Virus record (IMG/VR): IMGVR_UViG_3300026512_000697
Coordinates: 1-28,147 of that record
Source of the DNA: a virus
DNA length: 28,147 nt
Direction: 5' to 3' (one strand)
Position 1 is the stretch's first letter. Each line of letters starts with the position of its first letter. The translations under genes and the position numbers were made by a program. Positions 1 to 16,838 of the stretch are shown here, in pieces. The notes under the pieces are model-generated. The model did no database searches. It had not been told where the DNA came from and saw only the letters and a program-made list of their open reading frames with translations.

Positions 1-414
1 TTATTTAACCCCATAAGTCCAACTTCTCATATCTCCACTAGAACTTAGCTTAGTATCTATATGAAGTCTATAATCTCCACCTGCACCAATCCAATGTGAG
101 CCTTGCCCTATTCCTGTAAAACCTGCTTGAATTATACAAGATAGAAAATGAAAATAATCTGATTTATTGTTAAATGTTTTCTTTTTAATATCTACTGCCT
201 TAGCACCATCTCCATTATCAATATGTGTACTTGTTGATTTTCTTCCAACTTTATTAACACTATAATCTTTACAAGTTGCACCCTGTTCTACATAGACTGG
301 TTTTCCGTAAAGCTCCCTTGCCTTATCTAATTTGTCTTTAGTATCTTGGTTAAGACTAGCACCACATCCACAAGGACATTTTAGATTCTCTTTTTCTTCA
401 TCAAAATATTTCAT
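1..414 (-). CDS. Endolysin, M15-type D-Ala-D-Ala peptidase
   Basis: 137 aa. It probably cuts the peptide cross-links of peptidoglycan at the end of infection. The zinc-site pattern of the M15 (VanY-like) peptidases is visible: H64 and D75 in STHIDNGDGAKAVDIK, and H118 in RLHID. A CPCGCG segment at residues 13-18 is common near the N-terminus of this phage subfamily. There is no signal peptide, so release to the periplasm would need the holin encoded just upstream (gap of 1 nt). It is the last gene of the leftward late operon. Length is normal for the single-domain family. The reaction is inferred from motifs. Confidence 0.85.
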   Translation of the reverse strand: MKYFDEEKENLKCPCGCGASLNQDTKDKLDKARELYGKPVYVEQGATCKDYSVNKVGRKSTSTHIDNGDGAKAVDIKKKTFNNKSDYFHFLSCIIQAGFTGIGQGSHWIGAGGDYRLHIDTKLSSSGDMRSWTYGVK

Positions 415-415
415 T

Positions 416-814
416 TTATTTCCCTTTTATCGTATTTATCCCATTCACCCCAAATGATGCAGTCACTATTGTAGCCCAAGACGCTGTTATAGGTGTAAAC
501 AAGTCTGTCATTAACTTAGAGGCTAATTTAGCTCCATCAACATCCCCAAATTTAAAAGCTACAACGAAAATAAGAACTGATGTTACAAGCAAATAATATC
601 CATAAGCCCAACTAGCGAATGTCGCTAAGTTTCTTCTCATCTTGCCGTTTGGATCTAATGTCTTAATAAATAAAGACTTAGCTTCTGCATCGATATGACC
701 TGCTTGTGCTTTTTCTATATCAGTATCAATCCATTCTTTAGCAATATTCTCAACTGTTTTAGTTGCACCACCTGTAAATATACTTGCTATTGTTCCCCCT
801 ATTGTTCCCCACAT
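416..814 (-). CDS. Holin, 3-TM (GTA/phage) type
   Basis: 132 aa inner-membrane protein expected to open the membrane for the downstream endolysin. A Gly/Ala-rich amphipathic start (residues 1-20) is followed by a charged stretch (TDIEKAQAGHIDAEAK). The segment MRRNLATFASWAYGYYLLVT then leads into hydrophobic helices at about 62-85 and 105-125. This charged-then-hydrophobic layout, with an arginine-containing entry to the membrane part, matches the family named holin of 3TMs. It sits directly between a TM/coiled-coil protein and the M15 endolysin, as in a lysis cassette. Assignment rests on topology and context. Confidence 0.7.
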   Translation of the reverse strand: MWGTIGGTIASIFTGGATKTVENIAKEWIDTDIEKAQAGHIDAEAKSLFIKTLDPNGKMRRNLATFASWAYGYYLLVTSVLIFVVAFKFGDVDGAKLASKLMTDLFTPITASWATIVTASFGVNGINTIKGK

Positions 815-816
815 GA

Positions 817-1227
817 TTAGTCCTTTTTCCTATCTATGGAAGCATAAGTGGAAATAGTATCGAGGAAATCGTCTAACTTCCCCTCCATCTTCTCTACTTT
901 TTGATTTGTATTTTTTGCGACTAATTCTAGGTTTTTTAAATGCAGTTCTAATTCTAGTTTAGATACAAACTTTGCTTCTGCTTTGCCCATATCTAAATGG
1001 GTTGATGTGTTTTGTTCAAGCACAACAATACGCTCAACATTTGCATCGATTTTCTTAAACTGTGCATTAAGTTTTTTATCTAAATCTTTTGAGTTTGTAC
1101 CACTTGTAGTTATATGTTTTTCCATATCTTCTTCAAGCCTTTCAACTCTATTTCTCAATACTGCGTATGTACCGATAACACCTGCAATGGCAATAACAAT
1201 ATTAACCATCCAACTTTCTAAATTCAT
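817..1227 (-). CDS. Membrane-anchored coiled-coil protein, spanin-like candidate
   Basis: 136 aa. One hydrophobic segment lies at residues 8-24 (MVNIVIAIAGVIGTYAVL). The rest is a long charged, heptad-like helix (RVERLEEDMEKH..., LDKKLNAQFKKIDANVERI..., LELELHLKNLELVAKNTNQKVEKMEGKLDDFL). This is the topology of an inner-membrane spanin (Rz-like) or of an accessory holin regulator. It lies in the lysis cassette, 2 nt upstream of the holin gene. No outer-membrane lipoprotein partner was recognised nearby, so spanin is only a hypothesis. The start is chosen on AAAGG six bases before the ATG. The start also overlaps the stop of a 10-codon ORF (ATGA). Confidence 0.55.
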   Translation of the reverse strand: MNLESWMVNIVIAIAGVIGTYAVLRNRVERLEEDMEKHITTSGTNSKDLDKKLNAQFKKIDANVERIVVLEQNTSTHLDMGKAEAKFVSKLELELHLKNLELVAKNTNQKVEKMEGKLDDFLDTISTYASIDRKKD

Positions 1228-1256
1228 ATTAAACCTTTCATTGCTTCATCTGCCAT
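1224..1256 (-). CDS. 10-codon coupled micro-ORF
   Basis: Reads MADEAMKGLI then TGA. It has a GAGAGG ribosome-binding site six bases before its ATG. Its stop overlaps the start of the TM/coiled-coil gene as ATGA. It may serve only to couple translation of gpD to the lysis genes; no function is claimed for the peptide. Confidence 0.3.
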   Translation of the reverse strand: MADEAMKGLI

Positions 1257-1259
1257 ATT

Positions 1260-2198
1260 TTACCTCTCGAATTCAATGGTCATCTCCCACCCACCACTAC
1301 TAAAGTTGTGATTGACTGATTTTATTTGATATTCTCCGTCATCTTCTAAAGTATCAGTTAGTTCTAAAATTCCACCAGCAAATACAATCTGTCCTATGGT
1401 AGATAAGCTTCCAGTAACTATTCTCTGGTTAGCTCTTTGTAAATATGCATCTGCTTTTAATTTTGCTTCGGCTTCATTTTTAAACGAACTTCTATATACA
1501 AGTTGTGGCATACCATCGCCAACAATAATATTTTTAGTTGTATTTGTTTTTGTATCGTGCCATGTAGCTTTACATGATTTGTAGAGTGTTTTATTTGAGT
1601 GCTTTGCAGATAGTGAACTACACTCATCAGCACTTATTGTATATTTTGGTAACTCATCACTTTTTTTATCATCTTTTACTTTTTTCATAAAGTATAGAGT
1701 GTTATTTTTTATGTTAAATATCGCATTCAAATCTCTAGCTATTCTATTTAAAAAATTTAGATCACTTTCATCATGCTGTGCAATACTAGTCATAAAAACA
1801 TCATCGAAATCGCTTTTTAACTCAAGACCGCTTCTATCTGCTATCTGAGAACATATATCTTTTATAGACAATTTTTCGTAAGTAATATCTCTTTTTTGTT
1901 TTAAAACATTGCTAAAATCAACACTTGTAGCATTTATCGTAATTCCCTGATGCTTATCCCATGTGCTACTTTGCACTTTAAAAATTCCACAAAAAGTTAA
2001 ATCATCACCATATCCTAAATATAGCTCCAACTCATCTTCATACTTTGGTCTGATAAATCCATCTGTTATTTTTATAGTGAGTTCATCGGCTTTTTCATTT
2101 GCTTCATCTTTAAAACTTATACTTGTATTGTTTTGTTTTAAAACTGTAGTTACATCATCGCCATTGGCAATGATTTTAAAATTGGGATACATCACCAT
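1260..2198 (-). CDS. D: Baseplate hub protein, P2 gpD / late control D family
   Basis: 312 aa. It forms the trimeric hub that links the tail tube to the spike (T4 gp27 analogue). The N-terminal half carries the typical DELTIKITDGFIRPKYEDELELYLGYG-type pattern (written here only as a family signature). The middle contains SFKDEANEKADEL and SDLNFLNRIARDLNAIF, the conserved pattern around the hub domain junction. The C-terminus has GEYQIKSVNHNFSSGGWEM, typical of D proteins. The order X then D after U and T is that of P2. It overlaps the upstream gpX gene by 7 nt, suggesting coupling. Confidence 0.88.
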   Translation of the reverse strand: MVMYPNFKIIANGDDVTTVLKQNNTSISFKDEANEKADELTIKITDGFIRPKYEDELELYLGYGDDLTFCGIFKVQSSTWDKHQGITINATSVDFSNVLKQKRDITYEKLSIKDICSQIADRSGLELKSDFDDVFMTSIAQHDESDLNFLNRIARDLNAIFNIKNNTLYFMKKVKDDKKSDELPKYTISADECSSLSAKHSNKTLYKSCKATWHDTKTNTTKNIIVGDGMPQLVYRSSFKNEAEAKLKADAYLQRANQRIVTGSLSTIGQIVFAGGILELTDTLEDDGEYQIKSVNHNFSSGGWEMTIEFER

Positions 2199-2401
2199 AG
2201 CTTTTTAGCCTTTGGAGTTATTTCTACATCTATTACTGGAAGATTTACTGTATCACCATCATTTAAAATTGGTTTTGTAGCTAGTATAGGGTTGTATGCT
2301 ATCACCTTATCAAACACGGATAGTGTTTTATACTCTTTATAGATTATTTGGTCTAGTCTATCGCCATCTTGAGCTTTATATTGCTTCATAACTAAAACCA
2401 T
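2192..2401 (-). CDS. X: Tail protein X, LysM-like
   Basis: 69 aa, the usual size for P2 gpX. It shows one LysM-like fold signature: YKAQDGDRLDQIIYKEY, then VIAYNP and LNDGDTVNLP. In P2-like tails this protein helps to complete the baseplate or tube end. It overlaps gpU upstream by 26 nt and gpD downstream by 7 nt, so all three are probably translated together from the promoter module before U. Confidence 0.85.
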   Translation of the reverse strand: MVLVMKQYKAQDGDRLDQIIYKEYKTLSVFDKVIAYNPILATKPILNDGDTVNLPVIDVEITPKAKKLW

Positions 2402-2762
2402 CCCCTACAACTGCCAGGTCTATTTTAAACTCTTGTTTTAAAAACGCACCATCTTTTAAAAAACCACTTCTACTTAACTCAAGTGCTAAGATTAGGATTG
2501 TTTTACAAGTTCCATCGCTAAAAGCTAAAATACGAGGCTGTTTGGCTCTTGCCATTAACTCAAAATCTCTCAATTGCTTTTGAGACTTAGCTATAAGAGT
2601 ACCTTTTAACTCTATAGCCTCCTCGTACATTCCAGTAGATTGCCAGTTGTCAAAATTACCAAGTCTTTTTGACTGATTAAATACAAAGTTTATAGTTCTC
2701 TTGAGTTCATCAAAGGCAGTGTCATTTATATCAAATGTAAATTCATCTATTTGTGCTAACAC
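2376..2762 (-). CDS. U: Tail completion protein, P2 gpU family
   Basis: 128 aa. Recognised by the MLAQIDEFTFDIND start, the KRLGNFDNWQSTG segment and the middle FELMARAKQPRILAFSDG, a gpU pattern (cargo written as separate parts). In P2, U is needed for tail completion. The start codon is GTG with AAGG seven bases upstream. It is the first gene after the 81-bp gap that holds promoter module A, so it begins the third late transcription block (U-X-D-lysis). Confidence 0.82.
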   Translation of the reverse strand: MLAQIDEFTFDINDTAFDELKRTINFVFNQSKRLGNFDNWQSTGMYEEAIELKGTLIAKSQKQLRDFELMARAKQPRILAFSDGTCKTILILALELSRSGFLKDGAFLKQEFKIDLAVVGDGFSYEAI

Positions 2763-2792: not shown

Positions 2793-2840
2793 ATTATCTT
2801 TAAAAAATGAAGTTAAAAAAAGGTCATATTTGTTGGCATA
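2793..2840 (-). promoter_or_regulatory. Late promoter module A
   Basis: The block 2812-2840 is repeated perfectly at 16810-16838. On the leftward strand it reads TATGCCAACAAATATGACC, then seven T, then AAC. Exactly 13 bp further is GATAATAC (-10 hexamer 2793-2798). The predicted transcription start is about 25 nt before the GTG of U. A T-rich -35 position overlaps the end of the repeat, so the rest of the repeat may bind a phage activator. The function is inferred from repetition, spacing and position. Confidence 0.65.
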
Positions 2841-5457: not shown

Positions 5458-5750
5458 ATCCATTTTTAGCATATCTTCAAAAGAGAAGTGCAACCAATGA
5501 CCCATATAAGCCATTGATTTAACACAATCTTTCCAATCTATGACAAAAAACCTTTTAGCACCTCATCAATTTTGTTAAAATCTTTCATACTAAGTTCATC
5601 TACCTCATCAGGAGTAAGTCCTGTAAGGTTTACTATCAAAGCCAACTCTTTATCAAACTCATCAGCTATATCGCTAACGAGCTTCATATCTTTTACTTTA
5701 GGCTCTCTCATCTCGATTTCTTTGCCATCGCTTAGTTTTATTTTTTTCAT
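5389..5750 (-). CDS. E': Tail assembly chaperone E+E' (predicted -1 frameshift product)
   Basis: About 120 aa if the ribosome slips -1 at the T TTT TTG site (5544-5550) near the end of E. The -1 frame then stays open for 51 codons: VIDWKDCVKSMAYMGHW, LHFSFEDMLKMDLSDF, then a polar Ser/Glu-rich end and TAG at 5389. The composition (paired W, hydrophobic helix, SFEDMLKMDL) looks like genuine protein. In P2 the E gene makes E and E+E' by the same -1 shift at the same heptamer; the pair acts as chaperone for the tape measure. Gene order FII-E/E'-T agrees. Sequence shows slippery site and open frame; efficiency is unknown. Confidence 0.75.
5538..5750 (-). CDS. E: Tail assembly chaperone E (unshifted product)
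   Basis: 70 aa. It begins MKKIKLSDGKEIEMREPKV, the usual opening of phage tail assembly chaperones of the P2 E / Mu gp41 type, followed by an acidic helical region (LTGLTPDEVDELSMKDFNKIDEVLKGF). It lies between the tail tube gene FII and the tape measure, the fixed place for this protein. AAGGAG precedes the ATG. It ends at TAG (5538-5540), two codons after the slippery heptamer. Confidence 0.8.
   Translation of the reverse strand: MKKIKLSDGKEIEMREPKVKDMKLVSDIADEFDKELALIVNLTGLTPDEVDELSMKDFNKIDEVLKGFLS
5544..5550 (-). promoter_or_regulatory. -1 ribosomal frameshift site T TTT TTG
   Basis: On the leftward strand the zero-frame codons are GGT TTT TTG TCA TAG. The heptamer fits X XXY YYZ and is the one known from P2 gene E. 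The normal stop is two codons on, and the -1 frame is open beyond it. Confidence 0.75.
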
Positions 5751-5759
5751 ACTGTCTCC

Positions 5760-6260
5760 TTATTGTATATGTGATCTTAAATCTGCTAGATAATCAACAC
5801 CATCAATTATGCATATCATATTTTCAGTATCTAGCATAACTGCTTCTTTTCCATCTATTGTCATGATGTATTTGTTTACATTCATTTTGACTTTTCTTTC
5901 AACTTCACTATTCGCTTTCCAGGTTCCGTCATCGACTTCTATCTCGCCTTGTAGAGTAGCTATAGCTGGAATGTGGCTTCCACCCTGGGTAATACTTCCC
6001 TTTATAGTAAAGTTTGCACCAAGACCAGTTGCAGTTCCAGCTGCCATCGCTGCATAAACAGCTGGAGAGTATTCACTTAATGTAAATTCTGCCTCAAGCT
6101 TTTCAATAGTTCCGATATTTATATCTTTTTCATATCCACCTCTTTCTACTGTTTGCTTTTTAAACTTCACTTGGGGCAATTTAGCCTCTTTTGAAGTACC
6201 AAGGTGTCCGATACCATCTACAAAGATATTTATATCTTTCATCATTTGTGCGAATTTCAT
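5760..6260 (-). CDS. FII: Major tail tube protein (P2 FII family)
   Basis: 166 aa, the usual length. It forms the inner tube of the contractile tail. Family signs are the N-terminal DINIFVDGIGHLG, the KLPQVKFKKQTVERGG segment, and the C-terminal KYIMTIDGKEAVMLDTENMI (parts). It follows the sheath gene by 10 nt and precedes E. AAGGAG is well placed before the ATG. No anomalies seen. Confidence 0.93.
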   Translation of the reverse strand: MKFAQMMKDINIFVDGIGHLGTSKEAKLPQVKFKKQTVERGGYEKDINIGTIEKLEAEFTLSEYSPAVYAAMAAGTATGLGANFTIKGSITQGGSHIPAIATLQGEIEVDDGTWKANSEVERKVKMNVNKYIMTIDGKEAVMLDTENMICIIDGVDYLADLRSHIQ

Positions 6261-6270
6261 TTTCTACTCC

Positions 6271-7392
6271 TTACCCATTTATATAGTTTATTAAAGTGTC
6301 GCCCCAGTTATCAGAGTACACAAGTTCGATATTAAGCTCTCTAATACTTGGCATATCTTGTACCAATACAGTTAGATAAAACTTACCAGCTGTTACAGTT
6401 GCTTTAGTATTTTTTTCAGGGTCAAAGAACACATCAAAACCTATTACTACATTGTTACCTTTAAGTTCATTCATAAACTCAATTATAGACTTTTTAACCC
6501 ATATTAATTGGTCGGCTTCTCTATCTCTTGCCCATTTGTTAGCTTTAAGTATTGCAGCTAAAAGTCTGTGGAATGTTCGCACTCTATCAAGGCTTTGCCA
6601 AATAGGGTCAATATCTGTAGTTTCAAATCCGTATGTTCTCCAACCTACATCTTTAAGTATCATAGACACCGATTTTTGTCTTAATCTTCTAGCTTCACAA
6701 TCTGAACCATCTAAGTATTCAATAACTCTTTGAGTACCAGCTACACCTTTTGCTATTCTGTTTGAGTGGTTTTTTGCCCATCCAAAAGCAGTATTTCCAT
6801 CGTGATAAGCTATGATACCAGCCATCAAAGAACTAAATGGTATTAGCTTACCATCAGCATTATATCTACCAGTACCAACTAGCAAATACTTACTACCAAA
6901 GTTATTTACAAAGTTAGATACACCAGCTTCATCAACACTAAAATCATCTACAATACCAGTGGTCCATAAAGCACTAGATACACTATCAACTTTTGCAGCT
7001 ACTTCTACATCAGCACTATATTCAGGTGTGATAATCAAACCATTTTTAAGGTCAATACCTATTACTGGGTCTGATTGCTTCAGCATATCAAGCCCCTCTA
7101 AAACATTTGTCTTATTTACAGCACTATCATCATCAAGTGTAGATATATGCACTACAATAGGACAATTTACCCCTTGTAAGCTTATACCAGTAAGTGCTAC
7201 TTCTAAAGTGCCATCTGTGATATTGTTATCTTTTACATACTCTAAACCCTCATCTGCATTATTGAACTTCATAAGCCCAGTGTCACCAGCATTTGCTGTA
7301 GCTACAATCCCAATAGGTGTAGAACTACTTATGCTTATAGGTCTTGCAGCTTGTACCCCAAAACTTCCATTAATTCCGAAATTTAAATCCAT
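6271..7392 (-). CDS. FI: Tail sheath protein (P2 FI family)
   Basis: 373 aa contractile sheath subunit. Visible family patterns: IGIVATANAG near the N-terminus, a variable middle domain, KGVAGTQRVIEYLDGSDCEARRL, and the conserved GWRTYGFETTDIDPIWQSLDRVRTFHRLL region (quoted in part) with the C-terminal sheath fold. The IDPIW and VRTFHRLL motifs are typical of P2-type sheaths. It is followed closely by the tube gene, the standard order. Confidence 0.92.
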   Translation of the reverse strand: MDLNFGINGSFGVQAARPISISSSTPIGIVATANAGDTGLMKFNNADEGLEYVKDNNITDGTLEVALTGISLQGVNCPIVVHISTLDDDSAVNKTNVLEGLDMLKQSDPVIGIDLKNGLIITPEYSADVEVAAKVDSVSSALWTTGIVDDFSVDEAGVSNFVNNFGSKYLLVGTGRYNADGKLIPFSSLMAGIIAYHDGNTAFGWAKNHSNRIAKGVAGTQRVIEYLDGSDCEARRLRQKSVSMILKDVGWRTYGFETTDIDPIWQSLDRVRTFHRLLAAILKANKWARDREADQLIWVKKSIIEFMNELKGNNVVIGFDVFFDPEKNTKATVTAGKFYLTVLVQDMPSIRELNIELVYSDNWGDTLINYING

Positions 7393-7396
7393 CTTT

Positions 7397-7645
7397 CTAT
7401 TCTCCTTTGCTTTTAATGCAATGCTTCGCTTCTAAAACTCTTAGAAACTTACACACTAATTTGTCAAACCAAGTAGCCTTATCGCTCTCAATTCTTCTAC
7501 CAATATGACTACTAATCGTTTCATCTTGGCTACCGTTCCAAAGTAGTACATTAAACATTTGGTCTAATACTAAAAGAAACCTCATAGTGCGACCTCTTTT
7601 ATTCATATCATTCTCAAACTTTTTAATGTACTGTTTTTTGTTCAT
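7397..7645 (-). CDS. Conserved phage protein with LDQ...DETISS...R signature
   Basis: 82 aa, rich in basic residues, with no TM segment. The stretch LLVLDQMFNVLLWNGSQDET followed by ISSHIGRR resembles a group of small phage proteins often found near tail-fibre or lysis genes. I cannot name a verified function. It lies between the tail-fibre assembly gene and the sheath gene, 4 nt before the latter. The C-terminus contains KLVCKFLRVLEAKHC. Confidence 0.6.
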   Translation of the reverse strand: MNKKQYIKKFENDMNKRGRTMRFLLVLDQMFNVLLWNGSQDETISSHIGRRIESDKATWFDKLVCKFLRVLEAKHCIKSKGE

Positions 7646-7654
7646 ATCTTCAAC

Positions 7655-8140
7655 TTATTCATAAGTTGGAAGCTCTGTTAAAACTTCATCAACTGTAGGC
7701 ATATCTCTATTACCAGCTTTTACATCTGCTTGTATTTCACTAGCTTTTGCCCATACATTAAAATACCAATCCATTAATGTTTCTGCATTATTCTTCATTG
7801 CTTTCACTGCATCACTGTCGTTATCTTTAATAGGAACTGCAGCCGCTCTTGCTGATTGCATATTGTCCCACTTATACTCTTGTGCTTTTGTATCTAAGTG
7901 ATTTTGAATTGCATTGTTTATATTTTTTGCTTGTTGAATAAGTATTTCATCATCTGTTCTAAAATCTTTAACTGATAAATTATTTTTAGTTACATCAATA
8001 TAGTTGTAGCTATTGTCAATAGCTGTCTGCCAATCAGTTTCATTTACTTCGATGTTTGGTGTAGGTATTTCTTTGTGAATTTCACTATCATACCAACCTA
8101 AAAGTTTTCCATTTGTTTCGTCATAATGTGCTATTTTCAT
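7655..8140 (-). CDS. Tail-fibre assembly/chaperone-like protein
   Basis: 161 aa. The N-terminus (MKIAHYDETNGKLLGWYDSE...IPTPNIEVNETDW) has the pattern of phage tail-fibre assembly proteins that follow the fibre gene. The remainder is alpha-helical with AAAVPIKDNDSDAVKAMK and a Trp-containing end (MDWYFNVWAKASE). It starts 10 nt downstream of the fibre gene with AAGGAG before its ATG. The role, helping fold or attach the short fibre, is inferred from position and the N-terminal pattern. Confidence 0.6.
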   Translation of the reverse strand: MKIAHYDETNGKLLGWYDSEIHKEIPTPNIEVNETDWQTAIDNSYNYIDVTKNNLSVKDFRTDDEILIQQAKNINNAIQNHLDTKAQEYKWDNMQSARAAAVPIKDNDSDAVKAMKNNAETLMDWYFNVWAKASEIQADVKAGNRDMPTVDEVLTELPTYE

Positions 8141-8150
8141 GTTATACTCC

Positions 8151-8741
8151 TTAGTATCCTATTGCAAACCATAGCATTTGTAATGAACCTGTATTATGTG
8201 ATACATTCATTGATGTAGTAGATAAAGTATCAACTGTTGCTTGATATTCATCTGCACGCGTTGAATTGTAGTTACCCACCCCCAGCACACAAGCTGTAGG
8301 GAAAGCTATTGGGAAAACTACATTATCTGATGAGTTAGCATCGTCATTACCTTTAAATGTACCCCATTGCATAATCAAGCCACTTGGTAGTTTTTGATAA
8401 CCATTTTCACTTAAACTAGAAGTAAAGTCTGCGGGCAGTCCTCTAAGTAAATCAGCATCTAATCCACTGTCTGAACCATCAACAGCTTTCATTTCAACTA
8501 ATAGCTGACCCTTACTTAACGCTTCATCATCATTAACTGCATCTGCAACTTTAAAAGTTTGAGTTGGACTACCACCAAGTAGAGCTTTTAAAGCAACTTG
8601 TGCTTTCAACCATAAAGTTCTATTTGCTAAAGCTTTATGTGGTAGATTATCCACTCCATCAGCTCCACCTTGTACTGGGTCTGTAGTTTCAAGTTGATAA
8701 ACTCCAGTATCCCATTGTTCAGCTTCAGTTATATCAGCCAT
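8151..8741 (-). CDS. Short tail fibre protein (gp53-like C-terminus)
   Basis: 196 aa. The N-terminal part (EQWDTGVYQLETTDPVQGG...NLPHKALANRTLWLKAQV) is the repeat-like attachment motif of P2/Mu-type fibres. The C-terminal part GYQKLPSGLIMQWGTF...FPIAFPTAC...MLWFAIGY matches the gp53-like fibre tip domain, which binds the host surface. It is very short compared with P2 H (over 600 aa), with little shaft between the two domains. It follows gpI as in P2. Confidence 0.8.
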   Translation of the reverse strand: MADITEAEQWDTGVYQLETTDPVQGGADGVDNLPHKALANRTLWLKAQVALKALLGGSPTQTFKVADAVNDDEALSKGQLLVEMKAVDGSDSGLDADLLRGLPADFTSSLSENGYQKLPSGLIMQWGTFKGNDDANSSDNVVFPIAFPTACVLGVGNYNSTRADEYQATVDTLSTTSMNVSHNTGSLQMLWFAIGY

Positions 8742-8757
8742 TTACATATCTCCTTTT

Positions 8758-9387
8758 TTATACTAAACCGTGAGTATAAGCACTATCATAAAAAATAGCA
8801 CCGTCTCGTTGTTTTCTATCAAATACAAAACCGATTAAAACACATCTAACGGGCTTGTAAATTTCTATAAGCTTTTTAGCTAATACTGCTTGACTTTCAC
8901 TGATAGTTGTTTTTATAATTACTGCAAATTCAGCCCAGTTGGAAAAAACAAAATCATAGATATTTAATCCGTCATTGTGTTTTGCTTCACTATTATATGT
9001 GTAGCTTCCATCTCGTTTTACATCATACTTGTAGCTATTTCTATCTTTATATTCAACAATAATAGCTTCATAGTCAGGTATGCTTAAACCAACTGCTTTT
9101 AAAACTTCTAAAATAGCCCATCTAGTACCTTTAAGTTGGTGAAGCTTTAAACTAGATTTTATTAAATCTCTTTTATCAACCTCTCTAAGACTTTCATCCC
9201 AAAAATCAACTTTAAAAGCATAAGCCAAGTATGGTAGATATTTTGCTTCACAAGTTCCGGCATTAGCCAAGTCTTTAAAAGCTTTTATCTCACCACTTAA
9301 TGCACCAGCTACATCAGAAGCTACTACATCAGCACTATGTAATTCTTTAGTTTCAAATAACGGTATAAGTGATTGTGTTTGCACCAT
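8758..9387 (-). CDS. I: Baseplate/tail protein I (P2 gpI)
   Basis: 209 aa. Recognised by CEAKYLPYLAYAFKVDFWDE (the family LPWLAWALSVDxWD-type motif), IKSSLKLHQLKGTRWAILEV and the C-terminal KKLIEIYKPVRCVL. It attaches the fibres to the baseplate wedge. It overlaps J by 35 nt, a long overlap; the ATG used is the first methionine and gives the usual N-terminal length (SLIPLFETKEL). Confidence 0.88.
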   Translation of the reverse strand: MVQTQSLIPLFETKELHSADVVASDVAGALSGEIKAFKDLANAGTCEAKYLPYLAYAFKVDFWDESLREVDKRDLIKSSLKLHQLKGTRWAILEVLKAVGLSIPDYEAIIVEYKDRNSYKYDVKRDGSYTYNSEAKHNDGLNIYDFVFSNWAEFAVIIKTTISESQAVLAKKLIEIYKPVRCVLIGFVFDRKQRDGAIFYDSAYTHGLV

Positions 9388-10447
9388 TTATTCCTATCTC
9401 GTTATTTGCTATTACTACATTTGATAATGGACTTGTTATAACTACCTCTTTAACACCTTGAACTTTTAAAAAGTCATTGATTTCACTAAGTGTTATATCC
9501 GTACCTATCTGTTTAAGTGCAGCTAATCCAGTTGTTAAACTCTCAATAGCATTACTATAAACAGTTGCAGTTTCTTGATTTTGTAGTATTTTGATTTCAG
9601 CAACTACACTAAAAGGTATTTCAGTAGCTTTTGCAACTACGACAACATCACTAAGAGGTCTTACCTCTTCTTTGTTCAACATATCTTCTATTCTAGTTTG
9701 CATGAGAGTATCAGATAGTGGTGAGTAGTAAAAAACATTCACTACACCAGCACCACCATTTAACACAGCAACATCTTCTATTCTTTCATCAGCACTATAT
9801 GTAAATGACTTGTAAGTTTCTTCACTACCAGCTGTTGATTTATCAGCCATACTTAAAAGTATTCTAGCTCTAAACTCTTCATCATTTTCTACACTCGAAC
9901 CATTACTAAAAACTTCAGTTGCTTTTGCTTCAATCACAAAAGGTAAAGGTGTTGTTACGATTTCAGTCTTCACATCACTCTTAGATATTTCAAGTTGTAG
10001 TTCAACCGTACCAGTTACTTTAATTTCGCCGGCGAAAATAGTTACAGCATTTAAAAGTTTCCCTTGATACTCACTATTTTCATCTGTTAAAATCAAGTTA
10101 GCCGGTATTACTACATCTTGTGCTAAGGCTTCAGCTATACTAAACTCATAAGCAGCATAAGGTTTAGACCCACCAAGTCTTTCAACATTGTAAAAAACTG
10201 CATAATTATCTAAGTCATTATTTGTAGAAGTAGATAAGAAAAAAGCACTTGCTAAGTTATTAAACTCTGCTCTTAAATGCAACTCTCTATATGCGAAAGC
10301 TTCTAGTATCAATTTAAACTCATCACTTTCAAGTGGTATCCAATCAGGTACTAAAGTTTTAAAGTTATCTATGTTTTGATTTAAAATCTCTTCATAGTCT
10401 AAAACTTGCATTACATCAGGTCTTGGTAAGTTTGCTATATTAATCAT
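9353..10447 (-). CDS. J: Baseplate wedge protein J (P2 gpJ)
   Basis: 364 aa. Family signs: NLPRPDVMQVLDYEEIL at the N-terminus, ESDEFKLILEAFAYRELHLRAEFN, AVFYNVERLGG, ATEVFSNGSSVENDEEFRAR, and VKEVVITSPLSNVVIANNEIG at the end (parts). It builds the baseplate wedge with W and I. The start overlaps the end of W by 8 nt. Length is a little above P2 J (302 aa) and close to relatives in other phages. Confidence 0.9.
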   Translation of the reverse strand: MINIANLPRPDVMQVLDYEEILNQNIDNFKTLVPDWIPLESDEFKLILEAFAYRELHLRAEFNNLASAFFLSTSTNNDLDNYAVFYNVERLGGSKPYAAYEFSIAEALAQDVVIPANLILTDENSEYQGKLLNAVTIFAGEIKVTGTVELQLEISKSDVKTEIVTTPLPFVIEAKATEVFSNGSSVENDEEFRARILLSMADKSTAGSEETYKSFTYSADERIEDVAVLNGGAGVVNVFYYSPLSDTLMQTRIEDMLNKEEVRPLSDVVVVAKATEIPFSVVAEIKILQNQETATVYSNAIESLTTGLAALKQIGTDITLSEINDFLKVQGVKEVVITSPLSNVVIANNEIGINGANTITYTVI

Positions 10448-10730
10448 TTTCTACCTCAATTACTTCGCCATTTGCTAGGGTGATAACAAGTATCACAACA
10501 CCACTTACTGGTTTTATCTTAAACTCTACATTTTCAACTTTTACTCTTGGCTCATATTTGCTTATAGCTTCATAGGTGTATCTTATGGCTGTAAGTTTAT
10601 ATTCGTTGTTAAATTCTCTATCTCTTAGCTCATACAGTCTTGATCCAAACTCTGGTCTCATGACTCTACTTCCAAGAGGAGTTTTTAAAATACGATTGAT
10701 ACTCTTTGTTATATCTACTTTAAAAGCCAT
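10440..10730 (-). CDS. W: Baseplate wedge protein W (gp25-like)
   Basis: 96 aa. The pattern SINRILKTPLGSRVMRPEFGSRLYELRD (in parts) is the conserved core of the gp25-like/P2 W family, followed by EPRVKVENVEF and VVILVITLANGEVIEV. It is needed for sheath-baseplate assembly. It lies between V and J, the fixed P2 order, 3 nt after V. Confidence 0.9.
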   Translation of the reverse strand: MAFKVDITKSINRILKTPLGSRVMRPEFGSRLYELRDREFNNEYKLTAIRYTYEAISKYEPRVKVENVEFKIKPVSGVVILVITLANGEVIEVEND

Positions 10731-10733
10731 AAT

Positions 10734-11306
10734 CTACCTTGGTGTTGCAGTCGCACCATCTGTGGTGTCGTGCTTATGATTTGTAAGGTCACCCTTACTA
10801 TCTGTTATGTTCCCACTTACACTCAAGTTACCATCAATCGCTACATCACCAATATTTGTGGTAGTTGCTGTTATGCTTACTGTATCAGCTGTTATAGTTG
10901 CAGCTTTACAAATGATAGTGATTTTGTCACTAGCATTTACTTTAAGCTCTTTTGCATCTGTATCGTATGTAATAGTTGTGCCATCTTCAAACTCTACTCC
11001 AGCGGTTGTATCACTTGCCCAAGTTGGCTCTTTTGCCAATACATTAAAAATACTTCTTAATATAAAGCCACTACTAGCTTCCCCAAAAGGACTTATAACT
11101 ACAACTTGCTCACCAACTCTCATCGGAGAGTAAACTTTAAAAAAACTATTTACCAGGCTAAGAGCTGGTAAAAAGTCGGTTTCTCTCTCACCTATCTTCA
11201 CTCTTGCTAAACTTTTACCATCGCTACTTTTTGTTTGTGTGATAGTTCCATAGTTTGCTATGTTTCCAATAAGTCTTTTAAGTGCTGAATACATTACTCT
11301 TCCCAC
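10734..11306 (-). CDS. V: Baseplate spike protein V (P2 gpV)
   Basis: 190 aa. An N-terminal OB-fold region (about 15-90, NYGTITQTKSSDGKSLARVKIG..., MRVGEQVVVISPFGE...GFIL) is followed by a beta-helix built of short Thr/Ile repeats. The tip carries H177-K-H179 in LTNHKHDTTDG. In P2 such an HxH motif binds iron at the membrane-piercing apex. It is the first of the baseplate genes and overlaps the upstream gene by 13 nt. Confidence 0.9.
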   Translation of the reverse strand: MGRVMYSALKRLIGNIANYGTITQTKSSDGKSLARVKIGERETDFLPALSLVNSFFKVYSPMRVGEQVVVISPFGEASSGFILRSIFNVLAKEPTWASDTTAGVEFEDGTTITYDTDAKELKVNASDKITIICKAATITADTVSITATTTNIGDVAIDGNLSVSGNITDSKGDLTNHKHDTTDGATATPR

Positions 11307-11728
11307 TTCTGTGTAGAATATGTAACAGTAAATTTTAATCTTGCACTTGCATAGGCTTTACCTCTGTACTCGCCTACAACCTCACTGCCTTTATACTCAC
11401 CAATTACATTTAAAACTTCATCGCAAACAACACCAAAAGCTTTTATCACATCACTCATATACATTCTAAAAGACAAAGTATCTACATCTTTTTTATATGC
11501 GGCAGTTACATCTATCTCTATTGTAAGTATATGTGTGCTGGTCCAACCATTAGCCTCACTTGCACTTTCAGGGTCTCTAATGATAATACTTTCTGTCTCT
11601 TCATCTCCAAGAGGTCTCTCTAGCCATTCAAATACTTTTTTACCAGCTTCAGTGTAATACCCATTTCTTGAAGATATTTTTCTCATCTCTTCAACAATAG
11701 CACTTACAATTTCATCTCTTTTCATCAT
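11294..11728 (-). CDS. Tail terminator/neck protein candidate
   Basis: 144 aa, no clear named family. It has the shape of tail-completion proteins: an N-terminal helix (RDEIVSAIVEEMRKI), then beta-rich segments (STHILTIEIDVTAAYKK, YASARLKFTVTYSTQKW). It lies between the head-tail joining gene and V, where neck or tail terminator proteins are encoded. It overlaps the upstream gene by 4 nt and V by 13 nt. Function is inferred from position and predicted fold only. Confidence 0.5.
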   Translation of the reverse strand: MMKRDEIVSAIVEEMRKISSRNGYYTEAGKKVFEWLERPLGDEETESIIIRDPESASEANGWTSTHILTIEIDVTAAYKKDVDTLSFRMYMSDVIKAFGVVCDEVLNVIGEYKGSEVVGEYRGKAYASARLKFTVTYSTQKWEE

Positions 11729-12042
11729 TGGTTAGCACCCAAATAAACTCTAGTCGTTCCATCATCTTGACCCTGAATAGATACGACACAATAACTACTT
11801 CCCTCAACTTCAAATAACGAGCCATGAGATACATTCCTAATCTTATGAGTTGCAAATACCAAAGATGGAACACTAGCCTCAGCTTCGCTAAACTCACTTT
11901 GACTATCAAAAATAACCTCTGTGTGTTCTTCAAAGTATAAATACTCAAGCTCCTCACTAGTTTCGTTGTAAAAATGATTACAAACTCCACCCATATCTTT
12001 ACAACCCTCTAAATCAGCTCTCATTAACTCATCAAAGTTCAT
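11725..12042 (-). CDS. Head-tail joining protein (lambda gpFII-like)
   Basis: 105 aa. The C-terminal half (VPSLVFATHKIRN, GSLFEVEGSSYCVVSIQGQDDGTTRVYL) has the beta-strand pattern of lambda FII-type connector proteins, with V..G..Y.V......DG.....L. It sits after the capsid genes and before the tail genes, as expected for the head-tail joint. Its ATG overlaps the TAA that ends the extension beyond the previous gene's TGA (TAATG). Confidence 0.6.
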   Translation of the reverse strand: MNFDELMRADLEGCKDMGGVCNHFYNETSEELEYLYFEEHTEVIFDSQSEFSEAEASVPSLVFATHKIRNVSHGSLFEVEGSSYCVVSIQGQDDGTTRVYLGANQ

Positions 12043-12125
12043 TACTTCTCTTTTACCTCTTTAGCTTTTTTAGTAGCTGGTTTTCGAGGAAACTTTTCGC
12101 TCTGCGAAATCGCCTCGGCTAGTTT
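12042..12125 (-). other. In-frame extension beyond the TGA of the upstream gene
   Basis: After the TGA at 12126-12128 the same frame stays open for 27 codons: KLAEAISQSEKFPRK then PATKKAKEVKEK and TAA (12042-12044). That TAA overlaps the start of the next gene (TAATG). The Lys/Ala-rich end resembles the tail just before the TGA (TTTAKAGAKK). This suggests the gene once ended at 12042, and that the TGA arose by mutation or with the palindromic element. Readthrough is possible but unproven. Confidence 0.45.
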
Positions 12126-12126
12126 T
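12080..12126 (-). repeat. 47-bp palindromic element, copy 1
   Basis: 43 of 47 bases match copy 2 (14275-14321), same strand and same reading phase. Nested arms: CGAGG...CCTCG outside, TTTCGC-AGA-GCGAAA inside (leftward strand). It covers the stop of the 115-aa gene and the stretch just after it. Confidence 0.75.
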
Positions 12127-12473
12127 CATTTTTTAGCTCCAGCTTTTGCAGTTGTAGTTTTTTTAGATAACTCCTCAACTTTAGCTTCAAGCTCTTTTAT
12201 AGTTTCATCTTTTGAAACTAACTGAGTATTTAACTCCTCATTTGTAGAAGCTAAACCATTGATTTGAGTTGTAAGCTCCTCAACTTTAGCTTCAAGCTCT
12301 GCTATTACTTCGCTACTATCATCATTACTTACATCTTCGCTATACTCTTCAATATAACCAGCTTTTTCAAGCTCTTTTATCTCTTTAGGTTTTAAATGCT
12401 TTGATACATCTAAAACCCTACCAGCTTCAAGTATCCCTTTGTCTGTTGTTATTTCTACTTTGATTTTATGCAT
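12126..12473 (-). CDS. Head-region coiled-coil protein of unknown function
   Basis: 115 aa from the ATG at 12473 (MHKIKVEITTDKG). This start is preferred over an upstream in-frame ATG because AAGGTGG lies well placed before it and it follows the capsid stop directly. Residues 1-45 form a compact domain (DVSKHLKPKEIKELEKAGYIEE). Residues 55-105 form a coiled coil with a duplicated ELEAKVEEL, also duplicated at DNA level. The end is Lys/Ala-rich. It lies between major capsid and head-tail joining genes, where head completion proteins occur. See the extension entry for the odd stop. Confidence 0.65.
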   Translation of the reverse strand: MHKIKVEITTDKGILEAGRVLDVSKHLKPKEIKELEKAGYIEEYSEDVSNDDSSEVIAELEAKVEELTTQINGLASTNEELNTQLVSKDETIKELEAKVEELSKKTTTAKAGAKK

Positions 12474-12474
12474 A

Positions 12475-13518
12475 TCACACCACCTTAGCACTCAAGTAGC
12501 TATCTACATCACCTGGAAGAGGTAAAGGCTTAGATTGGAACACTAAAAATCTAACACTTGGGTCGTTCTCTTCGTAAGATTTAACAAAAATATCGCCTAC
12601 AAAGATATTTGTATCCATTCCAGCAGCTTTAAATGCTTTAAAATCAACAATACCACCATGTGCTATTTTTCCACCAGCTCTATCGCTTCCCATAATAAGC
12701 TTATCGCCTGGCATTATAAGAGTAGATACACCCTCATCATTTTCATAGTAATCTACATATTTATAGATTTCAAGATTTAACTCTTTTAGATAACCAATAT
12801 ATACAACACCATCTTCAAGTTTTTTAGGATTTATCTCACCTATATCTATTCTTTTTTTATCCATGGCATCTTGCACTTTTGCATGAGCAGTAAAAGCATT
12901 TGCTACATCTCTACCAAACACAACTTTATCAGGTGCAATTCCACTTTTGTCAAACAGATAGTCCGACCATGTTTTTAAATCATTGATTGGATCTGAACCC
13001 TCATCGGTCCATAAAGCACTACCAGTTAAAATTTTTGTATTTTGTGCATCTCTACCAAAATCAATCTCTTCTTCTACTCCATCACCTTTTACGATTATCT
13101 TGCCATCAACCAAAGCACTTACACACATAAGCTCTTTTCTTCTAGCAATTCTATCTTTACCATCTGCCAAATCTTCAGCAAGTTTTAGCATCGCTCTTTC
13201 TTCAGGGTCTGAGTTGTCAGCATAAAAAACAGTATCTGTATTTAAAAGCTCCTCTGCTTCAGTTATAAACTTTGGTTTCATCAATGGTGGTTCATAAGTC
13301 TTTAAAACTTTTCCATCTCTTTTTATAACCTTACCAGCCAATTTTGGAGATACAAAAGGAGCCACTTTACGACCACCTTTTTTGATAACAACATCTACAT
13401 ATTTTGTATCACTAAAACTCTCATCATTAAAGAAAGTCTTTAAGATAAAGTTTCCTACTGGTTTAACTTGACTAACTGTCTGAGTTAGTGTTCTTGAATT
13501 AAAATCTAAATCTGCCAT
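12475..13518 (-). CDS. E (lambda-type): Major capsid protein (lambda gpE family)
   Basis: 347 aa, the family's usual length (lambda E is 341). Typical features: DFNSRTLTQTVSQVKPVGNF at the N-terminus, KKGGRKVAPFVSPKLAGKV, LADGKDRIARRKELMCVSAL (the helical spine region), PDKVVFGRDVANAF and the C-terminal VRFLVFQSKPLPLPGDVDSY. It forms the icosahedral shell, stabilised by the gpD homologue encoded 11 nt upstream. No anomalies. Confidence 0.92.
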   Translation of the reverse strand: MADLDFNSRTLTQTVSQVKPVGNFILKTFFNDESFSDTKYVDVVIKKGGRKVAPFVSPKLAGKVIKRDGKVLKTYEPPLMKPKFITEAEELLNTDTVFYADNSDPEERAMLKLAEDLADGKDRIARRKELMCVSALVDGKIIVKGDGVEEEIDFGRDAQNTKILTGSALWTDEGSDPINDLKTWSDYLFDKSGIAPDKVVFGRDVANAFTAHAKVQDAMDKKRIDIGEINPKKLEDGVVYIGYLKELNLEIYKYVDYYENDEGVSTLIMPGDKLIMGSDRAGGKIAHGGIVDFKAFKAAGMDTNIFVGDIFVKSYEENDPSVRFLVFQSKPLPLPGDVDSYLSAKVV

Positions 13519-13529
13519 TTTTTATTCCC

Positions 13530-13862
13530 TTATTTTAAATAGATATTTTTATCTCTTAGAGGTGCTTCTATGTCTGCAAGAGTTAAAGTACCACCAAGTG
13601 TAAGCTGTTCTTTATCTACAGCACCACCAATCAATATCGGAGCATTTTTTAGCCCAGCTGTTGCATCAACATCATCTAAAAGTATCGCTTCCACTTTTGC
13701 TGCATCTGTTGTAACTTCAAAGTTCCCATCATCATTTTTGCCCAATACCGAACCCTTAACATAAGCACTACCACTTGCCAACACTCCGTTGCCATCAACT
13801 TTCCACTCACTAACTACTAATGGATTTGCACCATCAACAGTTGTTGTTTTAGGATTTGCCAT
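13530..13862 (-). CDS. D (lambda-type): Head decoration protein (lambda gpD family)
   Basis: 110 aa, exactly the lambda gpD size range. N-terminal flexible part, then LASGSAYVKGSVLGK, VEAILLDDVDATAG (lambda-type LAVDADGTATN region equivalent), APILIGGAVDKEQLTLGG and LADIEAPLRDKNIYL. It trimerises on the expanded capsid to stabilise it. It lies between protease/scaffold and capsid genes, as in lambda (C-Nu3-D-E). Confidence 0.9.
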   Translation of the reverse strand: MANPKTTTVDGANPLVVSEWKVDGNGVLASGSAYVKGSVLGKNDDGNFEVTTDAAKVEAILLDDVDATAGLKNAPILIGGAVDKEQLTLGGTLTLADIEAPLRDKNIYLK

Positions 13863-13864
13863 TT

Positions 13865-14242
13865 TTATTTACCTCTCTTTGCATTTACTTTTTCAAGCAC
13901 AGCACTAAGCTTTGCTTCACTTTTTTTGTCATTATTTGTAGTGTTTTCATCTACACTAGGCTCTAGTTCTTGAACTTGTTTAGACAAGTTCTCACCATCA
14001 CTTAGTTTTTGTTGTTTTAGCTTTTGGATTTGTGCTTCTTGCGTATCAAATAAAGCCACCTTTACATCTTTAACATCACTAGTGCCATCAAACACCATAG
14101 CTTTTAGCTTTTCATTATCATGATAAGCTTTTGGAATAGCACTTAAAATATCTTGTATTCGCTGACGCTCTTTTTTAGCCCCAGCACTAAATACCTCTTG
14201 GTGTAAATCACCATGATCTTGTTGTAGTTTTTCTAAAGTCAT
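13865..14242 (-). CDS. Scaffold protein from an internal start (Nu3-like)
   Basis: 125 aa in the same frame as the protease, beginning at M187 (MTLEKLQQDHGDLHQEVFSA). AAAGGAG lies nine bases before this ATG, a better ribosome-binding site than most true starts in the window. This is the arrangement of lambda C and Nu3, where the scaffold is made separately in excess. The protein is helical with KKERQRIQDIL and a Gln/Lys/Glu-rich C-terminus that would contact the capsid protein. Confidence 0.65.
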   Translation of the reverse strand: MTLEKLQQDHGDLHQEVFSAGAKKERQRIQDILSAIPKAYHDNEKLKAMVFDGTSDVKDVKVALFDTQEAQIQKLKQQKLSDGENLSKQVQELEPSVDENTTNNDKKSEAKLSAVLEKVNAKRGK

Positions 14243-14800
14243 TGTTTTACTCTCCTTTTGACTTAAATTTTCTTGTTTTCGAGGAAACATTTCGCTTTGC
14301 GAAACCGCCTCGGCTTGTTTTAACCCCACCTTTGCAGTTGGAATTGCTGGAATAGTTACAAAACTAGCCTCTTGTAGTTTCCAAGAAGTAGCTTTAAAAA
14401 TATTATCCTTGCCTTTAACTGGCTCTTTTGCATTTACCATTATCCCTACAGATAACGATTTCATAAAACCTTTTGAAACTTTTTTAAATATCTTCATAGC
14501 AAACTCATCTTCATCATCAAAAATAGCAGTTGCTTTTAACTTTTTATCTTCAAGCCTTATATCTTCAAAAGTTCCTATTGGTAGAGCTTCACTATTGTGT
14601 TGCACTAAAAGTGGCAATATATCTGCACGACTTAAATCAATAGCTTTTTTACTATGTTCTAAAATCAACTCATAAAGCCCATTTTCAAAATCAAATCTTA
14701 AAACTTTAGATTCATCACTTAAAACTACTGGAACTTTATAATTCTCTACATCAATGCCACTTTTATCTATATAACATTGACTACCAACACTACATCCCAT
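13865..14800 (-). CDS. Prohead protease fused to scaffold
   Basis: 311 aa. Residues 1-160 resemble HK97-type (U35) prohead proteases: H68 in LLVQHNSEALPIG, S117 in GFMKSLSVGI, and E144 in LQEASFVTIPAIPTA form the likely catalytic triad. Residues about 187-311 are helical and charged, as in a scaffold. Pairing a U35-like protease with a lambda gpE/gpD capsid is unusual, since lambda uses an S49-type gpC. The linker at residues 160-176 (LKQAEAVSQSEMFPRKQ) is encoded by palindromic element copy 2. An internal start for scaffold alone is described separately. The start overlaps the portal end by 11 nt. Confidence 0.82.
   Translation of the reverse strand: MGCSVGSQCYIDKSGIDVENYKVPVVLSDESKVLRFDFENGLYELILEHSKKAIDLSRADILPLLVQHNSEALPIGTFEDIRLEDKKLKATAIFDDEDEFAMKIFKKVSKGFMKSLSVGIMVNAKEPVKGKDNIFKATSWKLQEASFVTIPAIPTAKVGLKQAEAVSQSEMFPRKQENLSQKESKTMTLEKLQQDHGDLHQEVFSAGAKKERQRIQDILSAIPKAYHDNEKLKAMVFDGTSDVKDVKVALFDTQEAQIQKLKQQKLSDGENLSKQVQELEPSVDENTTNNDKKSEAKLSAVLEKVNAKRGK
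14275..14321 (-). repeat. 47-bp palindromic element, copy 2
   Basis: Matches copy 1 (12080-12126) at 43 of 47 positions. It lies inside the protease-scaffold gene and keeps its frame, encoding AEAVSQSEMFPRK (copy 1 frame: AEAISQSEKFPRK). The arms CGAGG/CCTCG and TTTCGC/GCGAAA are kept. Confidence 0.75.
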
Positions 14801-16313
14801 CTTTACTCTCCTCTTTTCTTAATCCAGCTTCGATCATTTTTGAATTTTCACTCTTTGCTTTGTTCATATTTGAGTTAAAATCCGTTCCATTCATCTCGGC
14901 ACTCTCTTTTGTTCTTGTGCTAAATCCCTCTTCGCATCTCATTTTTGCTGCTTTTGTCTCTTTCACTGGATCGAGTTGCCCTGGTGCATCTCCATTCCAG
15001 CTTGTTTTACAATAAGCTTTTCTTAAGCTAAAGTCATCAAAAAAGCCTGGTGCTTCTATACGACCAGTAAGGATTGCAAACTCAAGCCACTCCTCATAAA
15101 CCAACTGACAAAAATTAGTTGCCAACCACTTTCTTTTTTTTCTAAAAAACTTAAAAGCTTCAAGCAAAGCCCCACGACTTGCACTATAACTAGCTGTAAA
15201 GTGTTTTATTAGTAACTCATAAGGGATTTGTAAAGATGAACCGATTTGTCTTATGATAGATAAAGTAAAAGGGTCAAAGTTTTGGTTAGGTCGTCCAGGA
15301 TTTGCACTCTCTACGCTCTCACCAGGTGCAAGTCCAACTATAGAACCATTGCCAAGTCCATAATCAATATCATCTATATCTTCACTACTTATACCATCGC
15401 CAACCTCCCCAAGTTCAGTTTTAATAAAAACAGTAAAAAGACCACTTATAACTGCTGCAGTAAGTTCAGCCTCTGTGTATCTTCCTAATTGTTTTAAACT
15501 TTCTATTACTGGAGCTAAAAATGGCACTCCTCTTCTTTGGTCTGGTCTTTTTTTATCAAACAGATGTATAAGTTGTCTATTTCCACTTTTTGAAAATGTA
15601 TCAACTACTATCCAGCTATTTTTACCTTTATGGAGTCCGTATGGATGATATTTACTTATATGATATTTTATAGGCTCACCATACTCATTTACTTCTATCC
15701 CACCAGCTACTTTTTCACTATCAGGCTTATTGTCTTTATTTGATATTTGATATGCCTCTATTAGTTGCAAACTTAGTGTATATGGGCTATTGTGTCTTTT
15801 AATATGTGGTAAAAGTGCGACAACATCACCTCCAATTAGAGTTGAAAGAAAAGCGATCGATTGAAGTTCATAAAAATTTGATGTTCTAGTTGTATCACAC
15901 TCTTTACTATCAGCCCATAGTGAAAATTCTCTCTCTATATGTGAAGATAGTACCTCTGCCTCTTCGCTTGATATATTTAAAACCTCTGCATCTACTTGAG
16001 ACTGCAACTTTAATCCAGTCCCAACTATATTTATATCAGCAGTATCAACAGCACCATTTGCCAATGGGTTATTTCTATACAAATCAAAGCTTCTATCTCT
16101 TAGAAGTTCTAAATCAGGTAAATCTGTATTGTCGGAGTTTCCTTTTGTAGTTTTCCAACCCTTTAATGATGTTTTTTTCTTACTTGCACCACTATATGCA
16201 CCACTATTGGTTAAAAAGTTCAGATGAGTTCTAGCTTTTACACGATTTAACGCTTTTTGAGGTGAAAAAACTCCTATAGCACGATCTAGTAAAGTAGCTT
16301 TAATCAAGGACAA
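14790..16313 (-). CDS. B (lambda-type): Portal protein (lambda gpB family)
   Basis: 507 aa (lambda B is 533). It forms the twelve-fold DNA entry ring. Family signs: ARTHLNFLTNSGAYSGASKK, LRDRSFDLYRNNPLANGAVD, then DINIVGTGLKLQ, FDKKRPDQRRGVPFLAPVIESLKQLGRY (parts), and SYSASRGALLEAFKFFRKKRKWL. The C-terminal region KTSWNGDAPGQLDPVKETKAA is also conserved, with a Glu/Lys-rich tail. It overlaps gpW upstream by 14 nt and the protease downstream by 11 nt. Confidence 0.92.
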   Translation of the reverse strand: MSLIKATLLDRAIGVFSPQKALNRVKARTHLNFLTNSGAYSGASKKKTSLKGWKTTKGNSDNTDLPDLELLRDRSFDLYRNNPLANGAVDTADINIVGTGLKLQSQVDAEVLNISSEEAEVLSSHIEREFSLWADSKECDTTRTSNFYELQSIAFLSTLIGGDVVALLPHIKRHNSPYTLSLQLIEAYQISNKDNKPDSEKVAGGIEVNEYGEPIKYHISKYHPYGLHKGKNSWIVVDTFSKSGNRQLIHLFDKKRPDQRRGVPFLAPVIESLKQLGRYTEAELTAAVISGLFTVFIKTELGEVGDGISSEDIDDIDYGLGNGSIVGLAPGESVESANPGRPNQNFDPFTLSIIRQIGSSLQIPYELLIKHFTASYSASRGALLEAFKFFRKKRKWLATNFCQLVYEEWLEFAILTGRIEAPGFFDDFSLRKAYCKTSWNGDAPGQLDPVKETKAAKMRCEEGFSTRTKESAEMNGTDFNSNMNKAKSENSKMIEAGLRKEESKDGM

Positions 16314-16521
16314 CTCCTCTTCTTATAGATATACCTCTTCTTGGTCGTTCTAGTTTTGCTACTTTTTGCTCCCAAATAGCTCTGTTTTTTGTAATCTCAT
16401 CAAGGTTTGCACGAGTAAAAGTTCTGTCGTTTATTTTGTAAGATTGGTTCAATAAGACTGCTTTTTCTGCTTCTATATACAGATTTAGCATAGTTTGTGC
16501 GGTTTCTAAAGATATTGCCAC
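16300..16521 (-). CDS. W (lambda-type): Head-tail joining protein W (lambda gpW family)
   Basis: 73 aa, close to lambda gpW (68 aa). Two helices, LETAQTMLNLYIEAEKAVLL and RANLDEITKNRAIWEQKVAKL, flank a short beta hairpin (SYKINDRTFT), the gpW fold. A basic C-terminus (RPRRGISIRRG) follows. It binds under the portal to close the filled head. It lies directly before the portal gene, as in lambda. Confidence 0.82.
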   Translation of the reverse strand: MAISLETAQTMLNLYIEAEKAVLLNQSYKINDRTFTRANLDEITKNRAIWEQKVAKLERPRRGISIRRGVVLD

Positions 16522-16790: not shown

Positions 16791-16838
16791 ATTATGTCAA
16801 TAAAGAGAGGTTAAAAAAAGGTCATATTTGTTGGCATA
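16791..16838 (-). promoter_or_regulatory. Late promoter module B
   Basis: 29-bp block 16810-16838 identical to 2812-2840, then 13 bp, then CATAATAC (-10 hexamer 16791-16796). A TTGACA also occurs between block and -10 but is badly spaced for use. The block begins 6 bp after the stop of the upstream gene. The predicted leader is about 20 nt. It begins the head-gene block. Confidence 0.65.

Follow-up and report, generated by a model that had tools for sequence, protein, structure and literature searches.

Two identical 29-bp repeats as predicted operators of coordinated late promoters in a temperate phage

What does one 29-bp sequence do, letter for letter the same, in front of two separate blocks of lytic genes of a single prophage? 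The window, by which we mean the whole analysed stretch of 28,147 nucleotides, comes from a 48,448-bp contig in a genome bin and presumably belongs, as do its relatives, to the order Campylobacterales. Its lytic genes all lie on the minus strand, the early end of the prophage runs off the contig, and a tRNA-Leu(CAA) (L015 19801-19885), some 0.1 kb away from the lysis end, is the likely attachment site. Pfam identifies a GpA-type terminase, a lambda-type portal, capsid E and P2-type tail genes. Along the gene strand, the terminase large subunit (17049..19949, minus; GpA_ATPase, GpA_nuclease, LAGLIDADG_3) is followed by the gene of a 67-aa protein (16844..17047, minus), by the head-side copy of the repeat (16810..16838, minus) and by a block (5538..16763, minus; Pfam and homology table) of gpW-like, portal, protease, capsid, baseplate, sheath, tube and gpE genes. 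The tape measure gene (2844-5189, minus; same sources) comes next, then the second copy on the tail-end/lysis side (2812..2840, minus) and a block assigned by Pfam (1..2762, minus), comprising gpU (2376-2762), gpX, gpD, two short genes and an M15 peptidase endolysin; within it, 416-814 has no Pfam match and is probably the holin gene. In the terminase large subunit, a LAGLIDADG homing endonuclease insert, apparently an intein, separates the early part from the ATPase domain.

Two copies of one sequence among the lytic genes

Comparison letter by letter bears out the identity of 2812-2840 and 16810-16838 that the earlier note had claimed. Read on the minus strand, each copy gives TATGCCAACAAATATGACCTTTTTTTAAC, followed by 13 dissimilar bases and then by a -10 octamer, GATAATAC at 2798-2791 and CATAATAC at 16796-16789, respectively; the claimed 13-bp spacing to (G/C)ATAATAC is exact at both. 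The gaps that hold the copies measure 81 bp (2763-2843) and 80 bp (16764-16843), in agreement with the 80-81 bp reported before, and they precede the U-X-D-lysis and head genes, as stated there. The repeats had been placed 4-6 bp after a stop codon, which is right if one counts from the codon's last base; the intervening bases number 3 and 5. At 29 bp, the pair forms the longest exact repeat in the window, compared to longest repeats of 14-19 bp in 60 third-order Markov sequences. With up to three mismatches allowed, the 1.53-Mb genome of origin holds the two copies and no other, and the 25-base core occurs in one of 99 genomes, the window's own, with zero records for the exact 25-mer in IMG/VR. 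A separate 50-bp repeat (12077-12126 and 14272-14321), 90% identical and partly self-complementary in its core, has one copy in an intergenic position and the other within the protease gene.

The position close behind stop codons would suit a terminator, an RNA processing signal, a packaging or recombination site or a functionless recent duplication, but neither gap folds into a terminator hairpin, Rfam has no match in the window, and pairs of other sequence recur in other lineages at a fixed distance to a -10 element, which makes this the least probable of the explanations considered here. A canonical promoter with -35 and -10 was likewise discarded: neither site was listed by a TTGACA/TATAAT scan.

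We propose instead that this temperate tailed phage has a pair of coordinated late promoters and that the two repeats serve as their operators. Either promoter would consist of a host sigma70 -10 element (GATAAT, 2793..2798, minus; CATAAT, 16791..16796, minus, with TGA before it as in an extended -10) lying 27 bp from the GACC anchor of the repeat, without a canonical -35 and with the operator centred near -40. When the -10 is placed at -12 to -7, the repeat is predicted to span approximately -54 to -26, where class II activators usually sit beside the polymerase. One phage protein would bind both operators, positioned to contact RNA polymerase, and so activate in step the operons for head and tail (from 16763 down) and for gpU-X-D and lysis (from 2762 down). 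The likeliest binder would be the product of 16844-17047, which is encoded last in the operon upstream of promoter 1. To the reading as a whole, that is, two or three predicted late promoters per phage, with an operator near -40 particular to that phage, served by one phage regulator (likely the post-terminase protein) and started by host sigma70, we assign a probability of about 60%. The sequences themselves show the repeat and its geometry, the matched boxes of the relatives and the agreement of operator class with the post-terminase protein; from these we infer that the sites are promoters, that the post-terminase protein binds them and that it activates rather than represses.

Predicted promoter geometry and matched boxes in related phages

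Sigma70 promoters of Campylobacter jejuni have an extended -10 and, instead of a -35, a periodic AT signal (PMC3656092, PMC3847290). Our sites, 13 of 21 by the count given below, fit the Campylobacterales sigma70 type defined by the consensus in these papers, with a gnTAnaAT-like -10 and no -35. Since such promoters lack a -35, a box fixed near -40 is no host element, and the periodic AT signal of the host may explain the T-runs around the boxes.

Relatives were collected through gpU, which was matched in 21 of 398 genomes of the order, in 10 of 104 genomes of one family and 3 of 175 of another, and at seven loci of IMG/VR. In the same gaps or in other late-gene gaps, several related prophages carry a matched pair or trio of another sequence, namely GTCCCTTTTT, CACC...CTCCCTTAC or TAGTCGACTA, with a sigma70-like -10 some 27-31 bp beyond the box. 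The gpU gap, wherever it is present, contains a box, and gpU relatives without the gap (e.g., G549, G514, L075) are also without that site. The motif search recommended in the earlier note, through the phage's own genome and its relatives, thus returns two copies at home and, in the relatives, conserved architecture in the absence of the letters; its refuting observation, a repeat absent in all relatives, is therefore misleading.

Boxes of the GTCCC type stand before gpW/portal and before gpU in G254, IM08 (the IMG/VR phage L070/L100) and IM28 (L074/L103), the two sites of the last having 26 bases in common. G254 has ATTTTTGTCCCTTTT in the gpU gap; the twin of this box lies 12.9 kb upstream, where a gap separates the post-terminase gene from the gpW-like gene. 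In G107, G185 and G309, CACC...CTCCCTTAC is found before gpW/portal and behind the capsid gene, with none at gpU; in the G185 pair, 55 bases match, with one difference. Shuffled controls reached the within-phage match in 0 of 300 cases for the window, IM28, G107 and G185 and in 1 of 300 for G254 and IM08; G365, with AGGGCTTT at both sites, is a weak pair, non-significant alone (86/300). G365 is redundant with 3300003138_000021, and G544 contributed the gpU side only. Among IMG/VR records, 2868776803 equals G254 at both sites, and 2899706915 pairs a head site of IM08 type with a tail site of G254 type. The operator of G150 and G137 is TAGTCGACTA. The pattern AGTCGACT-N22-NANAAT, drawn from the sites seen in these two and scanned in six whole genomes, has three matches in G137 (2.3 Mb) and two in G150, all five inside prophages, and none in the four other genomes; the scan was the first to reveal the third G137 site. 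The reversed pattern, used as control, gave none in G137, none in G150 and one in G254.

Broader screens were less discriminating. The loose core GWCCYTTTT-N17-22-AWAAT occurs at or below control level in seven of eight genomes (4 versus 2 in the window's own genome), so the core by itself is non-diagnostic. A strict screen for noncoding repeat pairs, run on 29 relative loci, returned the window, L046, L048 and L054 only and missed the known pairs of G254 and G107; the two L054 copies resemble ribosome sites. Behind IMG/VR terminase relatives (80 of 589 listed, 48 of them with 3.5 kb downstream), a repeat score of at least 17 was found in 2 of the 48, both tentatively taken for coding similarity. 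A second operator copy was not found in G438, G226, G267, L058 and G549, 5 of the 14 lineages searched, some of them on short contigs. The pair in L048 (reverse complement, 1725 and 2647), 58 bp long, promoter-like and ending in TTATAAT, is apparently unrelated to the operator pairs.

The best -10 lies at the same or nearly the same offset from the operator anchor within each phage: 27/27 in the window and in G107, 29/29 in G254, IM08 and IM28, 28/27 in G365, 27/28 in G309, 31/31/31 in G137, 31/31 in G150 and, weakly, 27/30 in G185. A -10 with at least five of six matches at offset 26-31 is present at 13 of 21 sites, compared to a shuffled mean of 2.3 and to 0 of 2000 shuffles with as many. 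Such fixed spacing would also be expected if a phage sigma-like factor read operator and -10 as a single promoter type, a very improbable arrangement in view of the -10, which is host-like throughout, and of the box, which is wholly different between lineages. Because the operator changes fully while the -10 stays of host sigma70 type, an activator is favoured. What the earlier note had advanced, twin late promoters under one phage factor, is hence supported in part, as the reading best backed by the matched pairs in late-gene gaps of several relatives and their fixed -10 distance; its sigma-like option gives way to the activator as the better fit.

The gene behind the terminase as candidate regulator

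The window is a mosaic. Its tail module is akin to the GTCCC/AGGGC clade, with a sheath 81-86% identical to sheaths there, and its head module to G107/G185, with a capsid that has no match in the former clade and is 41-44% identical to those of the latter. Genes in 21141-28147 have no relative in G254, G365, IM08 and IM15, and two methyltransferases among them have one in IM28. Despite the two module origins, the window's operators match each other and neither source clade, as expected if one protein must read both.

A short, alignable gene, its protein mostly of 60-76 aa, follows the terminase in 14 lineages; ORF listings of G339 and L059 have no short gene directly in that place, and these two, together with G079 and G131, are excluded from all lineage counts. 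As a single query against 248 genomes, the 67-aa protein of the window gave no convincing match (best foreign E 0.0017), and the profile alone links it to the family: when built from the post-terminase proteins of 13 relatives, with the window left out, it ranks 16844-17047 first among 155 window ORFs, with 28.0 bits and E 1.5e-8, while the highest score among 1000 shuffles is 11.2 bits. The gene ends 5 bases before operator copy 1.

Across ten lineages, with operator classes assigned by eye and IM08 and G254 being close kin, the operator class tracks the identity of the post-terminase protein with an AUC of 1.0 (1 of 20000 label permutations as good), compared to 0.72 for terminase identity (1079 of 20000). 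Pairs with the same operator are at least 40% identical in the post-terminase protein and other pairs at most 38%, a margin of two points. The comparison leaves out the five lineages that have the post-terminase gene and in which a second operator was not found. IM28 and G365 have terminases 77% identical, differing operators and post-terminase proteins 30% identical; G137 and G150 share their operator and have post-terminase proteins 76% and terminases 32% identical, and the G137 terminase is 65% identical to that of IM28. Linkage between the gene and the adjoining head-side operator contributes to the association. The far operator, 1.7-16 kb off, matches too, and in IM08 and G309 there are 0.5-0.8 kb between the gene and the near operator. 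Inserted opposite-strand genes, possibly morons, separate the post-terminase gene from the head genes in L100 (reverse complement, 10060-10488), L101 (9639-10067) and L090 (2917-4599).

Based on this sequence evidence, the product of 16844-17047 is the best candidate for the regulator. Its pI is 5.8, not basic, compared to 8.0-9.9 for seven of nine listed family members. The family's sequence pattern is reminiscent of ribbon-helix-helix proteins, but that fold is weakly supported, single members scoring below the cut-offs (PF01402, RHH_1, 0.064; 56B_RHH, 0.066-0.18), the family profile having no relevant match in the PDB and single-sequence AlphaFold giving a poor, all-helical model of the window's protein (pLDDT 67). 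This weak support for the fold counts in favour of another phage protein as regulator of the same twin promoters, encoded in the early control region that partly runs past the contig end. One weaker candidate of that kind is the 59-aa ORF at the contig edge (27968..28147, minus), ribbon-helix-helix-like by eye; it has no significant family match, was rejected as a post-terminase family member (2.7 bits, E 1.2 in the profile search), and its AlphaFold model, made without alignment, is poor and of low confidence. Against a different regulator speak the agreement of operator class with the post-terminase protein over ten lineages and the fact that the window, while lacking relatives of the G254 clade's control and replication genes, has a recognisable post-terminase gene. 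We consider a regulator other than the post-terminase protein unlikely, and still the most probable of the alternatives.

The direction of control requires separate consideration, for binding near -40 can keep polymerase out as well as bring it in, and the regulator might silence the late promoters until removed on induction. PHROG 876, annotated as 'transcriptional repressor', matches 3 of the 14 post-terminase members (best 1e-5), and ribbon-helix-helix proteins are mostly repressors. However, a lytic terminase operon is an odd place for the gene of a lysogeny repressor, and the sites lack a canonical -35 as activator-dependent promoters do, although host promoters lack one too. Gene position and the absent -35, the latter with that same reservation, thus favour activation by the post-terminase protein, and silencing appears quite improbable.

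Known late-gene switches and wider meaning

The predicted switch is likened to staphylococcal Ltr or to Mu C in its mode of action, with membership in neither claimed. Ltr/RinA of Staphylococcus phages are proteins of ~130 aa from Gram-positive hosts, with RinA encoded upstream of terS; here, the proteins have mostly 60-76 aa, the gene lies behind TerL, and there are two or three predicted promoters. Shared with that type is the candidate regulator gene directly upstream of a predicted late promoter. No kinship to Ltr, RinA or ArpU emerged among the Pfam and PHROG matches of the 14 post-terminase members. To our knowledge, Mu C is not encoded behind a terminase. It is a small phage activator of four scattered late promoters with non-consensus -10 and -35, bound just upstream of the -35 (PMC4461284). 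Like Mu C, our candidate would be one small activator acting on several scattered late promoters; unlike in Mu, the operator varies between relatives. Mor/C (PF08765) was rejected among the proteins scanned, with no match in the post-terminase family or in those short ORFs of the window that were covered.

In P2, several late operons with P2-like tail genes are driven by one activator, Ogr/Delta. Ogr is a zinc finger that reads TGT-N12-ACA near -55; the box described here is centred near -40 and spans approximately -54 to -26, and the tail genes are of the P2 kind. Among the subset of window ORFs scanned, no protein matched Ogr. P2 is not known to have a promoter between T and U. The closest annotated relatives of the tape measure are VHML-type Vibrio phages (44-46% identical), and in MAR, VHML and VP58.5 the gpU gene overlaps that of the tape measure, which leaves no promoter gap, unlike in the window.

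A description of late-gene control in temperate phages of Campylobacterales was not found in the open-access (PMC) literature, and the matched tags suggest a phage switch of a kind not described before. For ten phage lineages, our study puts forward predicted promoters and operators together with a candidate regulator, and it proposes a rule, according to which the operator follows the post-terminase gene: a predicted regulon whose recognition sequence changes in concert at distant sites while the surrounding genes recombine. More tentatively, and at slightly less than even odds, the post-terminase proteins may constitute a new family of late-gene activators of Campylobacterales phages whose DNA specificity is exchanged from phage to phage along with the full set of scattered operators. 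If so, a recombinant would have to change all its late promoters simultaneously, and the operator-protein pairs would amount to naturally occurring phage switches, each insulated from the others.

Some minor observations concern other parts of these genomes. L043 (199-1284) encodes, amid lytic genes and besides the integrase, a second tyrosine-recombinase-like protein (~360 aa, by eye) with homologues in L044, L100, L101 and L103, conserved in the GTCCC/AGGGC clade. In the window, an 11-bp unit, TATCGTTCTGC, forms two small arrays at 25877-26004, inside the gene 25418-26269. The long gap before the KilA-N gene (27795-27967, without Rfam match) contains a hairpin with the loop GAAAGTTTGGCGACC; the same loop occurs on a different stem upstream of the replication genes in L103, and L102 has a similar one.
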